Origin: Chitinophagaceae bacterium IBVUCB1
Lineage (GTDB): Bacteria; Bacteroidota; Bacteroidia; Chitinophagales; Chitinophagaceae
NCBI GenBank assembly: GCA_002127285.1
Contig: NFUW01000002.1
Location: 954,744 to 1,018,743, forward strand
Direction: 5' to 3'
DNA length: 64,000 nt
Under the pieces are notes generated by a model. It was given only the letters and a program-made list of their open reading frames with translations, was not told where the DNA came from and ran no database searches. Positions 12,353-27,858 of the stretch are shown one piece after another. The translations under genes and the position numbers were made by a program. How positions within the stretch are numbered: the stretch's first letter is position 1; every line of letters begins with the position of its first letter.

Positions 12353-14443
12353 TTATTTAGATTCATTATACTTTGCTTTCACCTTATCCAGATGGTCGAT
12401 GAATTTTTGCACGTTAGGGTCATATCCATATCCTTCATCAGCCAGCTTATTACCGTTTTCATCTATGAAGAAATAGAAAGGTTGAGAGTTTGCACCGAAT
12501 TGAGCGGCTTGTAAATCTTCATTCCTATCCCCAACTGTTACTACATCCGAGCCCAATATTTTAGAATGATATTGTTGTTCTTTCGGTAAGTCTTTCTTGT
12601 CGTAATCGCAATAAAGTGATGCAACAATAAAATCTTCTTTCAATCGTTTGGCTACTTCAGGCTTGCTCCATACTTGCGACTCCATCTTTCGGCAATTCAC
12701 ACAATTAATACCAGTAAAATCAAGCATGATGGGCTTTTTCAACTGCTTTGCTGCAGCCAGTGCTTCTTCATACTCAAAGTAGGTAACTAAGCCGAGGTTC
12801 TTAACAACAGGCGGCTCGTATATCTTCATTTCCTCTACATACTTCACGGGTGCTATGCCTGTATTTTCATTACCATGCGAGCCACCGTTACCGCCACCTT
12901 CTGTCAATACAAAATCTTGCGTACCTATTGGCGGCACAAACTGGCTCATACCGTTTAGCGGCGCGCCCCACATACCCGGCAGCAAGTACAATGCAAATGA
13001 AAACATAGTAATAGCAAGGAATAGTTTTACTAAGCCTACATACTCCTGCCCATACAGGTTCTTAGGAGGTGCATCGTCATGAGATAATTTCAGTTTGCCT
13101 AATAGATAAATACCCAATAGCACAGACAACACTATCCATATCGCTATGAATATTTCCCTATCAAGTAATCGCCAGCCTTGTGCAAGGTCTGCATTAGATA
13201 AGAATTTCAATGCCAGCATCAATTCTATAAAACCAAGGGTTACTTTTACTTGGTTCATCCATCCACCACCCGTTGCCATTTTATTCAGCATACCAGGGAA
13301 GATTGCAAACAATGCGAATGGCAAAGCCAACCCAACCGAGAAGCCAAACATACCAATGGCAGGGCCTATCAAACCACCTTTACTCGTCAATACCAATAAT
13401 GGACCTACAATGGGACCGGTACAGGAGAATGACACGATAACCAAAGTGAGTGCCATGAAGAAGATACCACCAAAACTGGTTAGCCCTGCTTTAGAGTCCG
13501 TCTTACTCGTCCAAGAAGATGGTAATGTAATTTCAAATGCACCCAAAAATGAAATACCGAATATCACGAATATAGCAAAGAAGAAAAGGTTGGCTATCCA
13601 GTTAGTAGATAAATTATTCAGAGCATTTGCTCCGAACGTTGCAGAGATTAATACACCCAGTAGTGTGAAGATGATGATGATAGATAGAGAATAATAAATA
13701 GCATTGCGTATACCCTCTGCTCTGCTCTTGCTCCTTTTAGTAAAGAAGCTAACAGTAATGGGTATCATGGAATACACACAAGGTGTAAGCACTGCTAATA
13801 AACCACCACCCAATGCTGCGAAGAATAACCACAACAACGATTTCTGTTCTTGCGGCATATTATTATCACCATCTTTCTTATCTGTTGCAGATACTGCGGG
13901 TGCTACTTCAGTTTTTTTTTCTGCTTCGACCGGTGCGGCTATTGCAGTATCAGTTGATGCGCTTGTGGGGTTGGGAAGTTCAGGGTCATTTACATCAATA
14001 GAAAACTTTTTTGTTTTAGGTGGTAGGCAGCCCTGGTCGTTACAGGTCATGTATTCATACTTACCTGTTATCTTGCCATTGGTATCTATTGTTACGGGTA
14101 CTATATAATCGGCATTTTTGTAATAGTGTACAGTACCAATGTCTTCTATCGTTTCGTCTATCTTCTTGCCTTTCTCTGTCGTCTTACCACTTACTTTGTA
14201 TCTGGTAGACTTATCTACCCTGAAATCAGGAGGCAGAAAGCTGCCATCACCACCAGGGTCTAATGAATAGATATGCCAGTTGTTCTTTACATCTACATGA
14301 AAGATCAAATCGTACTGGTTGCCGCTTTTCTTTTTGGCGGTTATCGTCCATGTTGTAGGGTCTTCAATTATCTGCGCAAAAACAGGCGATAAAGCAAAGA
14401 AGCTGAACAATAACAGCAGAAACGATTTGAGTTTGATATTCAT
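12353..14443 (-). CDS. dsbD: protein-disulfide reductase DsbD-like, thioredoxin-fused
   Basis: 696 residues. Order: signal peptide; periplasmic alpha domain (about 25-150) with a C-x4-C pair (CNDQGC); a low-complexity Thr/Ala/Glu linker; an eight-helix CcdA-like membrane domain (about 205-480) with LTPCVYS and FSCTGP cysteines; and a C-terminal thioredoxin domain (about 560-690) with the CVNC motif. All three Cys pairs needed to pass electrons from cytosolic thioredoxin to the periplasm are present. The linker contains a run of nine A (13912-13920) directly followed by a UGA in the -1 frame. It sits at the end of a same-strand gene run with purQ. Confidence 0.88.
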   Translation of the reverse strand: MNIKLKSFLLLLFSFFALSPVFAQIIEDPTTWTITAKKKSGNQYDLIFHVDVKNNWHIYSLDPGGDGSFLPPDFRVDKSTRYKVSGKTTEKGKKIDETIEDIGTVHYYKNADYIVPVTIDTNGKITGKYEYMTCNDQGCLPPKTKKFSIDVNDPELPNPTSASTDTAIAAPVEAEKKTEVAPAVSATDKKDGDNNMPQEQKSLLWLFFAALGGGLLAVLTPCVYSMIPITVSFFTKRSKSRAEGIRNAIYYSLSIIIIFTLLGVLISATFGANALNNLSTNWIANLFFFAIFVIFGISFLGAFEITLPSSWTSKTDSKAGLTSFGGIFFMALTLVIVSFSCTGPIVGPLLVLTSKGGLIGPAIGMFGFSVGLALPFALFAIFPGMLNKMATGGGWMNQVKVTLGFIELMLALKFLSNADLAQGWRLLDREIFIAIWIVLSVLLGIYLLGKLKLSHDDAPPKNLYGQEYVGLVKLFLAITMFSFALYLLPGMWGAPLNGMSQFVPPIGTQDFVLTEGGGNGGSHGNENTGIAPVKYVEEMKIYEPPVVKNLGLVTYFEYEEALAAAKQLKKPIMLDFTGINCVNCRKMESQVWSKPEVAKRLKEDFIVASLYCDYDKKDLPKEQQYHSKILGSDVVTVGDRNEDLQAAQFGANSQPFYFFIDENGNKLADEGYGYDPNVQKFIDHLDKVKAKYNESK

Positions 14444-26013: not shown

Positions 26014-27858
26014 TTACCAATCCAATTGCATATTCAGGGCATCGCGCAGCTTACCCAGAGACGGGTTCTTTTTTATCATATCGTCCAGTATCTCTGCTTT
26101 GCTGCGCACTACGGGGGCGGCTTCTTTCAGTTCCATATCCTCTCGCAACTCCACCTTTACCCTCAGCGGGTAGCCCGAATGTTTTCTGAAATAGTCTATC
26201 AGCACATTGCGCTCGTTATTAGCGTTCGACTCTGTCAGTTGGTCTTTGCATACCACTATCACCTCATCTGGTGCTACAAACGCAACATCCATCATAGTGA
26301 GGCTGGCTCGGTAGGCACTGCGGGTGGTGGGTATGCCATGCTTGTAGTGCTGCCATATCTCGGCTACCATATCGGCAGTTACCTCTTTCTGCTCTGCCTG
26401 CTGATTGCGCAGTTCTTCGTCTATTATCGCATCGAGGTCTATGACGCTCTTGCTGATGCGCCTGCCGCTTGTGGTTATAGCATCTTGCGGTGGTGGCCCA
26501 TCGCTTTTGTATATGAATTTCCGGGCTTCGTGCTTGGGGGCTTCTTGTACTGGCTTGGCTGGCTGTATGGGTTGCTCGGGCTCGGCTACTATACTAGCAG
26601 GCAGCACATCGTGCGAGGGGGGGGCCAGTTCTATTACTTTGGCAGGCTCGGGTACGGGTTTTGCGGCTATTGGTTGCGGACTGGCTGCTACAACAGGCGC
26701 AGGTTGCACAACCCCTACCCCATCAAAGTTTTTTTTTACATCATCGGGGGTAGCCGATGTTGCTTGCAGCACATAACATAGCCTGATGAGGCACATCTCT
26801 ACATGCAGGCGTTTGTTGGTAGCATTCTTATAGTTTATCTCGCTATCGTTCACCACATTCAGTGCAGATATAATGAAAGACGGCGGTGTCTGGTTGGCTT
26901 TTTCGTGAAAAACGGGTTTGTGGTCGGCGGGTACGTCCAGCAGCTTTGCCATACGCGGGTCTTTGCATAGCAGCAGATTTCGCAGATGTTCTGCCATACC
27001 TTCCAGTATCACATCGCCCTCAAAACCACGCTCCAGCGCGGCATCCAATTGCAGCAGCGTACCACTTACATCTTGCCCCAGTATGTGGTCTGTCAGTTTG
27101 AAGTAGTAATCAGCATCGAGCAGGTTCAGATGCTCCATCGTGCTTTGATAGGTAAGCATACCATTGGTAAAGCTCACAATCCTATCCAGCATACTCAGTG
27201 CATCGCGCATACATCCCTCGCTCTTTTGGGCTATTACGTGCAGCCCTGCTTCCTGCGCCACTACACCCTCTTTGGTAGCTATGCCATGCAGGTGCGCCAC
27301 TATATCGTTGGTCGTTATCCGCTTGAAGTCGAATATCTGGCAACGGCTGAGGATGGTGGGTAGTATCTTGTGCTTTTCTGTAGTAGCAAGGATGAAAATG
27401 GCATACGGCGGCGGTTCTTCCAGCGTCTTCAGAAAGGCGTTGAAAGCCGCGGCACTCAGCATGTGTACCTCGTCTATGATGTATATTTTGTACTTGCCCT
27501 GCTGGGGTGCAAAGCGCACTTGGTCTGTCAGGTTGCGGATGTCATCTACCGAGTTGTTGCTGGCAGCATCCAGTTCAAACACGTTGAACGATGTATTGTT
27601 GCTAAAGCTTTGGCAGGTAGGGCATGTGCCGCAGGCTTCTATATCGGCCGTCGGGTTCTCGCAGTTGATGGTCTTTGCCAATATACGGGCGCAGGTAGTT
27701 TTGCCCACACCACGCGGCCCGCAAAACAAATAGGCATGCGCCAGATGATTGTGGCGGATGGCGTTTTTGAGCGTAGTGGTGATATGCTCTTGCCCCACAA
27801 CCGTATCAAAGGTTTGGGGGCGATACTTACGGGCCGATACTATATACTGGTCAGACAT
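26014..27858 (-). CDS. dnaX: DNA polymerase III subunit tau (and possibly gamma)
   Basis: 614 residues. AAA+ clamp-loader core (about 1-370): Walker A GPRGVGKTTCARILAK near 48, the four-Cys zinc module (C-x8-C-x2-C-x2-C type, residues ~72-90), a DEVHM Walker B, and the SRC sensor near 170 (ILSRCQIF). After domain III the sequence becomes Pro/Ala-rich (about 375-500), followed by a tau-type C-terminal domain. Exactly at that border (codons 374-377) there is a run of nine A, A-AAA-AAC in frame, and a -1 shift reaches UGA one codon later. A gamma product of about 378 residues is therefore likely. Confidence 0.93.
   Translation of the reverse strand: MSDQYIVSARKYRPQTFDTVVGQEHITTTLKNAIRHNHLAHAYLFCGPRGVGKTTCARILAKTINCENPTADIEACGTCPTCQSFSNNTSFNVFELDAASNNSVDDIRNLTDQVRFAPQQGKYKIYIIDEVHMLSAAAFNAFLKTLEEPPPYAIFILATTEKHKILPTILSRCQIFDFKRITTNDIVAHLHGIATKEGVVAQEAGLHVIAQKSEGCMRDALSMLDRIVSFTNGMLTYQSTMEHLNLLDADYYFKLTDHILGQDVSGTLLQLDAALERGFEGDVILEGMAEHLRNLLLCKDPRMAKLLDVPADHKPVFHEKANQTPPSFIISALNVVNDSEINYKNATNKRLHVEMCLIRLCYVLQATSATPDDVKKNFDGVGVVQPAPVVAASPQPIAAKPVPEPAKVIELAPPSHDVLPASIVAEPEQPIQPAKPVQEAPKHEARKFIYKSDGPPPQDAITTSGRRISKSVIDLDAIIDEELRNQQAEQKEVTADMVAEIWQHYKHGIPTTRSAYRASLTMMDVAFVAPDEVIVVCKDQLTESNANNERNVLIDYFRKHSGYPLRVKVELREDMELKEAAPVVRSKAEILDDMIKKNPSLGKLRDALNMQLDW
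26729..26737 (-). promoter_or_regulatory. A9 slippage / -1 frameshift site in dnaX
   Basis: On the coding strand the frame reads GTA AAA AAA AAC TTT GAT. The heptamer A-AAA-AAC is a canonical -1 slippery site, and nine consecutive A also permit polymerase slippage. Inserting one A or shifting -1 gives ...CTT TGA. Deleting one A reaches TAG after a few codons. Both routes end translation right after the clamp-loader core. Confidence 0.6.

Follow-up and report, generated by a model that had tools for sequence, protein, structure and literature searches.

A run of nine adenines behind a covarying stem-loop as a probable RNA polymerase slippage signal for two DnaX products in Bacteroidota

The window analyzed here is a stretch of 64,000 nucleotides from Chitinophagaceae bacterium IBVUCB1 (NCBI GenBank assembly GCA_002127285.1, contig NFUW01000002.1, positions 954,744 to 1,018,743 of the forward strand), and the features discussed below belong to its dnaX gene (Table 1), whose identity was tested with the TIGR02397 (DnaX) model. 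The forward strand of the window carries nine T where the dnaX strand has nine A, and codons 374-379 of the gene read GTA AAA AAA AAC TTT GAT, which agrees exactly with a previous sequence-only reading that had placed an A9 run in codons 374-377. The same reading had located the run at the end of the clamp-loader core, as was found here: domain III, delimited by PF12169, ends at residue 365, and therefore the run lies about nine codons past the core. Immediately after the run, the off-frames are closed by a UGA at codon 2 and a UAG at codon 4. When the products were computed, the A9 message gave the 614-aa tau, A10 a protein of 378 aa ending in VKKKL, A8 one of 380 aa and A11 one of 381 aa. 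Thus, both the gamma of 378 residues that had been predicted and the TAG said to be met soon after the loss of one A were recovered by computation.

Table 1. Features of the dnaX locus, in window coordinates.
Feature	Position	Strand	Evidence
dnaX, 614 aa, clamp-loader subunits tau and (predicted) gamma	26014..27858	-	ORF list; TIGR02397, 443 bits, above the curated cut-off of 250
AAA+ core and domain III, codons 1-365, common to gamma and tau	26764..27858	-	Pfam PF13177, PF22608, PF12169 (the last ends at residue 365)
Stem-loop CATCGG-ctaccc-CCGATG directly 5′ of the A run	26742..26759 (outer helix would extend to 26738-26763)	-	Fold, recoding, covariation
A9 slippery run, codons 374-377	26729..26737	-	Sequence; kept in 14/14 genus and 206/240 class loci
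Tau-only region, 3′ of the A9 run	26017..26727	-	Open frame; match of this ORF (L001) to the tau C-terminal profile
UGA, first stop of the -1 frame (one A gained or -1 ribosomal shift), giving a predicted gamma of 378 aa	26723..26725	-	Sequence; computed products
UAG, first stop of the +1 frame (one A lost or two gained), giving a predicted gamma of 380-381 aa	26715..26717	-	Sequence; computed products

Taken alone, the run in this gene is mild evidence, because the 3.41-Mb genome holds 36 matches to nine A, corresponding to 32 distinct runs of at least nine A with both strands counted; such a run in one given gene is uncommon, yet not unheard of. Additionally, synonymous recoding of the dnaX protein segment of the window produced a run of at least nine A in 8% of the draws. 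The strong evidence for a run kept beyond chance is comparative, and it was drawn from a non-random set of 240 analyzable Bacteroidia dnaX loci, comprising 14 loci of the window genus (from 14 of its 15 genomes), 78 named loci and 148 loci of a class sample. To obtain the named loci, the best 80 were kept out of 593 stretches; the run is covered by one of the six peptide patterns used to find them. The class loci derive from the best 30 of one listing plus two more, from 60 regions and from genomes picked for family spread; of 40 of these regions, 32 were picked for a short open frame, so that split genes were enriched on purpose. A less biased figure for split genes is that an open frame shorter than 450 aa was seen in 38 of 150 cases, these being the best 150 of the 292 genomes with a match, and some of these frames end at contig edges. 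The paralogs L002-L008, the duplicate L250, and L083 and L090, whose contigs end in the site, were left out. A single-gene FastTree tree of DnaX cores, built without a branch test and holding 277 labelled tips, includes L071 and L175, which are absent from the counts, and excludes L091, L092, L100, L174, L249 and L278. Over its 277 tips, at least 58 changes were needed among the five states single-ORF, two-ORF -1, two-ORF +1, UAG and no run.

The run was searched in the 110 codons after domain III with a threshold of nine A, and 9-13 A were found in 206 of the 240 loci (14/14 in the genus, 62/78 of the named loci and 130/148 in the class sample). A10 was the mode, with 140 loci, followed by A9 (44), A11 (19), A12 (2) and A13 (1). 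The run begins in all three codon registers (30, 110 and 66 loci), which indicates that it is the run itself that is kept and not one peptide. It was found in genes with up to 64% G+C, as measured in the first kilobase of the gene. In the same ORFs, runs of at least nine A occur once in 259 kb of core and three times in 69 kb of tail, and lysine is encoded by AAA and AAG in a ratio of 324:21 at the run versus 3856:1818 elsewhere. Outside the class but within the phylum, 28 loci were covered, all of a single frame, and 17 of them carry the run. The sequence-only reading had named relatives without the run as the observation that would speak against it; such relatives are present, but as a minority of 34 of the 240 loci. 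These include L127, L130, L141, L196, L079 and L080, as well as some records titled Bacteroides or Bacteroidaceae. Apart from the UAG loci described below, they mostly have one open frame, and they may have lost gamma or may produce it otherwise.

The frames around the run are also conserved. In the genus, all 14 loci carry A9 or A10; counted from the end of the run, their -1 frame is closed at codon 2-3 and their +1 frame at codon 4, while the flanks vary, so that the pattern of a conserved run and off-frame stop among varying flanks, proposed as a check on the earlier reading, was indeed observed. The -1 UGA highlighted in that reading is present in most genus rows, but it is replaced by UAG in some. 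Among the 137 single-ORF loci of the whole set, the -1 frame is closed within 2 codons in 99, compared with 19-20% when other in-frame positions of these genes are taken, and both off-frames are closed within 7 codons in 118 (86%), against a null of 15-16%. The region beyond the run was followed with a tau C-terminal profile built from these and related ORFs, the window ORF (L001) included. This profile finds tau in the zero frame of 134 of the 137 loci; it does not match L202 or L234, and L184, although counted here, is split, with tau in the -1 frame and a zero-frame stop 18 codons on.

The other 69 of the 206 loci have a zero-frame stop no more than 5 codons from the run, which means that tau itself needs a shift there. 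The tau profile was matched in the -1 frame in 63 of these and in the +1 frame in five (L036, L166, L169, L189 and L228, all from draft genomes); the remaining one, L100, ends at a contig edge and has no match. Six of the split genes come from single-contig genomes (G109, G295, G345, G599, G616 and G638), so that split genes as a group are not draft artefacts, and annotators of Bacteroidota genomes need not take a split dnaX for a pseudogene. The window dnaX does not belong to this two-ORF group, since it is one frame of 614 aa, whereas tau lies off-frame in 68 relatives. In the sections of PMC3711429 (Antonov et al. 2013) covered here, 17 two-ORF dnaX genes are described, all of them requiring -1 and carrying A runs, mostly A10, and the nine A10 species among them may include Bacteroidetes. 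According to the same sections, polymerase slippage can be recognized by orthologs that differ in the direction of the shift, and on this criterion the presence of both -1 and +1 genes in the present set points to slippage.

In the window, an inverted repeat lies directly 5′ of the slippery tract, as slippage with a nascent 5′ stem-loop calls for; its stem-loop reaches -9.8 kcal/mol (z -3.18; P 0.042 versus synonymous recoding) and is the strongest 5′ hairpin among the 32 runs of the genome. Across the 206 loci, the 32 nt directly upstream of the run gave a mean energy of -6.5 kcal/mol and a z of -1.01, versus -3.1 and -0.15 in 618 control windows taken 60-140 nt further upstream, and the energy profile peaks with the window that ends at the run. 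With a threshold of -4 or better and an end within 6 nt of the run, a hairpin was present in 141 of the 206 loci versus 139 of the 618 control windows; the 65 loci below the threshold include L009 and L020 of the genus. Part of the raw energy reflects composition, considering that G+C upstream of the run is 0.499 versus 0.420 in controls and that the median site of the 34 loci lacking the run also shows slightly stronger folding (-4.62). The composition is corrected for by the z against dinucleotide shuffles and by the comparison with synonymous recoding (z -0.81 versus -0.16, p 4e-14), and the effect is alike in single-ORF and two-ORF loci.

In the genus, the stem keeps a fixed position, three or four bases before the run. 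In an ungapped alignment of the 14 loci (13 distinct rows), 89% of the cells pair and five of the seven pairs have changed on both sides. The covariation score was 0.520 against 0.195 for shuffles, none of 500 being as high, although the shuffles leave relatedness uncorrected; structures slid along the same alignment scored at most 0.158. The ten closest rows vary little and give a weak covariation signal. A natural, covarying RNA hairpin 5′ of an A run should be useful for the study of RNA polymerase slippage driven by nascent RNA.

Taken together, the comparison makes a gamma/tau switch at the dnaX run well supported, and the claim that the run is set up for gamma/tau production is supported by it, with gamma as a predicted product. 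The A run and the 5′ stem-loop probably constitute a programmed RNA polymerase slippage signal. According to this proposal, the nascent stem-loop would form at the moment when the A run lies in the hybrid of RNA polymerase and, like a pause or terminator hairpin, would loosen that hybrid. The polymerase would then realign on the run, yielding mRNAs with 8, 9, 10, 11 or more A. Ordinary translation of the A9 (and A12) messages would give tau, and the other lengths would lead to a UGA or UAG within a few codons and to a gamma of 378-381 residues. It is from sequence comparison that the occurrence of slippage, its efficiency, the role of the hairpin, and the production and use of gamma are inferred. 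In the sections of PMC5009743 consulted, slippage in an insertion sequence of Roseiflexus is driven by a stem-loop placed 5′ of the motif, and the hybrid held by the polymerase spans 9-10 bp. A stem-loop 5′ of the tract stands where nascent RNA would act. Considered along with the threshold in run length, the stops guarding both off-frames and the occurrence of genes that need a shift in either direction, this makes hairpin-primed slippage the best account. Against the slippage reading stands the fact that the 34 loci lack the run and their bearers nevertheless live.

The earlier reading had left open whether the polymerase slips or the ribosome shifts. Polymerase slippage is now favored by the hairpin located 5′ of the run and by two-ORF genes that need -1 or +1, as well as by the sharp threshold in run length and by the missing structure signal on the 3′ side. 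Under the strongest rival explanation, ribosomes shifting to -1 on A_AAA_AAC or A_AAA_AAA would produce gamma, as in E. coli, with termination at the UGA one codon on, and slippage would be nil or minor. Such an account is unlikely, even if -1 shifting by the ribosome, alone or in addition to slippage, is possible. Both heptamers are in frame at the window (A_AAA_AAG is absent), the -1 stop is the nearer and better kept of the two (99/137 within 2 codons), and of the 68 two-ORF genes in which tau was matched, 63 need -1. Additionally, a single tRNA-Lys (UUU), as shifting on A_AAA_AAR would like, was found among the 34 distinct tRNAs in an incomplete list for the window genome. SD-like 5-mers are slightly enriched upstream of the run (21 of 206 loci versus 4.4% of control windows), as might be expected if a minority of loci had a ribosomal element; the window itself has no SD element in the 20 bases before the run.

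On the other hand, frameshifting at the ribosome would be satisfied with a heptamer of seven A, but runs of 7-8 are rare and 9-11 are the rule. In E. coli, according to the part of PMC5009743 consulted, A_AAA_AAG is far more prone to shifting than A_AAA_AAC or A_AAA_AAA. Near stops guard the +1 frame as well, and five two-ORF genes require +1. Moreover, the conserved structure lies 5′, against the polymerase exit side, and a downstream structure looked for in two ways showed no excess across the loci (z -0.38 versus -0.23 in controls for 204 loci; -0.10 in the second search), nor was a 3′ stem-loop stimulator found in the window (fold z 0.18).

Far less probable is phase variation, in which the run would be no recoding site but a homopolymer prone to mutation, whether exploited by the cell or simply endured at the DNA level. 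Run length and layout do vary between relatives, as reflected in the at least 58 changes among five states over the 277 tips, but the layout is constant within the genus, where 14 of 14 loci were scored as single-ORF, and the guarded frames and the hairpin would go unexplained. Furthermore, tau is required by every cell, so that a gamma-only cell should not grow. Similarly improbable is a lysine-rich linker that tolerates A runs by chance, with no second product: about a dozen other long ORFs of the window genome carry a sense-direction run of at least nine A, and synonymous recoding alone expects a run of nine in 46.7 of the 137 single-ORF loci, but as a general account the chance homopolymer was rejected on the run frequency (206/240 loci), the two guarded frames, the shift-dependent tau genes and the 5′ hairpin.

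A different arrangement was encountered in one Bacteroidales genus. In three named loci without the run (L059, L068 and L089), the gamma/tau boundary is marked by a UAG that is in frame with both the core and tau. A search for relatives led to the genome G1070, and a family sample of 81 genomes holds 14 of its genus, all of which show the UAG arrangement. It is represented by 17 loci (L059, L068, L089, L349, L393 and L408-L419) and corresponds to one change on the dnaX tree. The context UAG AUW GCN AGR is found in 17/17, with changes only at third codon positions, and in 17/17 the frame after the UAG matches the tau profile. The conservation of Ile-Ala-Arg with freer third positions suggests that the region after the stop is translated, and the fact that AUC and CGN never occur suggests a constraint on the nucleotides too. 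Therefore, this genus probably relies on programmed UAG readthrough, by which gamma would result from termination and tau from readthrough.

Reassignment of UAG in this genus is unlikely, given that dapF ends in TAG in L089 (Pfam PF01678); ORFs named dapF by eye likewise end in TAG in L408, L409 and L414. A suppressor tRNA is possible, and a tRNA with a stop anticodon was not seen among the 43 distinct tRNAs in the incomplete list for G1070; tRNA-Ile was found neither in this list nor in that of the window genome. A restart of translation after the UAG is also possible, and the codon that follows it is AUU or AUA, never AUG. RNAalifold gave no consensus structure after the UAG on alignment A2, and single folds of some rows gave short hairpins in differing registers. 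As judged by titles or the beginnings of abstracts, no report of dnaX readthrough was found in the literature. In three further loci (L071, L175 and L422), the dnaX frame ends near the boundary with neither a run of at least nine A nor the UAG motif, and in L071 tau lies in another frame; these loci could reflect another device or sequence errors.

Slippage on A9 in Thermus dnaX and the shift in E. coli dnaX are established, according to the sections of PMC5009743, PMC1088944 and PMC3290774 consulted. The Thermus thermophilus case, transcriptional slippage on A9, was described by Larsen et al. 2000, as reported in the parts of PMC1088944 and PMC5009743 consulted. Slippage of this type also entails mRNAs that vary in their number of A, with gamma and tau both present at about 1:1. 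The Thermus gene resembles that of the window in its coding-strand A9 at the gamma/tau boundary, with tau in one frame and near stops in both others, but it belongs to another phylum; the window has a covarying hairpin directly 5′ of the run. The E. coli gene (A_AAA_AAG, SD, 3′ stem-loop) yields the same output from the same gene region, with a -1 stop right after the site, whereas the window has A9 without AAG, no SD, no signal of a 3′ structure and a 5′ hairpin instead. In the Roseiflexus insertion sequence, as presented in the part of PMC5009743 consulted, an inverted repeat lies directly 5′ of the slippage motif, as in the window, but the motif is T5C5 with one C lost, while the window has an A run in a housekeeping gene. 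The two-ORF genes of PMC3711429 have A runs with tau off-frame, like the relatives of the window gene and unlike the window gene itself, which is one frame; all of those genes are -1, whereas the present set also has +1 genes, and the sections covered leave a 5′ hairpin unmentioned. Beyond that paper, no study of slippage in Bacteroidota dnaX was found when judged by title or the start of the abstract. Thus, the features that seem to be new are the scale of the phenomenon in Bacteroidota, the hairpin 5′ of the run, the two-ORF genes of the +1 type and the lineage with UAG; the sequence-only reading noted neither the hairpin nor the two-ORF relatives nor the UAG.

It has long been argued whether gamma is important or an enterobacterial oddity. 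Most of the species seen in this phylum keep the parts for two DnaX products, which makes the question of gamma testable by comparison; a shift is needed for tau in a good share of the species, and one lineage seems to have exchanged the device for another. A broader interpretation, held with slightly more confidence than doubt, is that selection in Bacteroidota maintains two products of dnaX, whereas the device by which they are decoded is repeatedly rebuilt, as hairpin-primed slippage in three frame layouts and as programmed UAG readthrough in one Bacteroidales genus, and that the combination of a 5′ hairpin and an A run is perhaps reusable, for example in coaBC of the window genus.

In coaBC, a gene named by eye, an A10 run was observed in the linker between the two enzyme halves in nine of the 15 genus genomes. 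It lies at G000:C1:131240-131249 in the window genome (L318, L497), where the off-frame stops fall at codons 2 and 4, and its relatives are L498-L505; slippage there could release the first half alone. Within the window, an A9 was also observed at 13912-13920 on the minus strand, in the ORF 12353..14443, where it occupies the linker of a DsbD-like protein of 696 aa (named by eye). Its off-frame stops come after 1 and 2 codons and its 5′ hairpin, of -7.9 kcal/mol, is the third strongest of the 32, which makes this run a further candidate for slippage.
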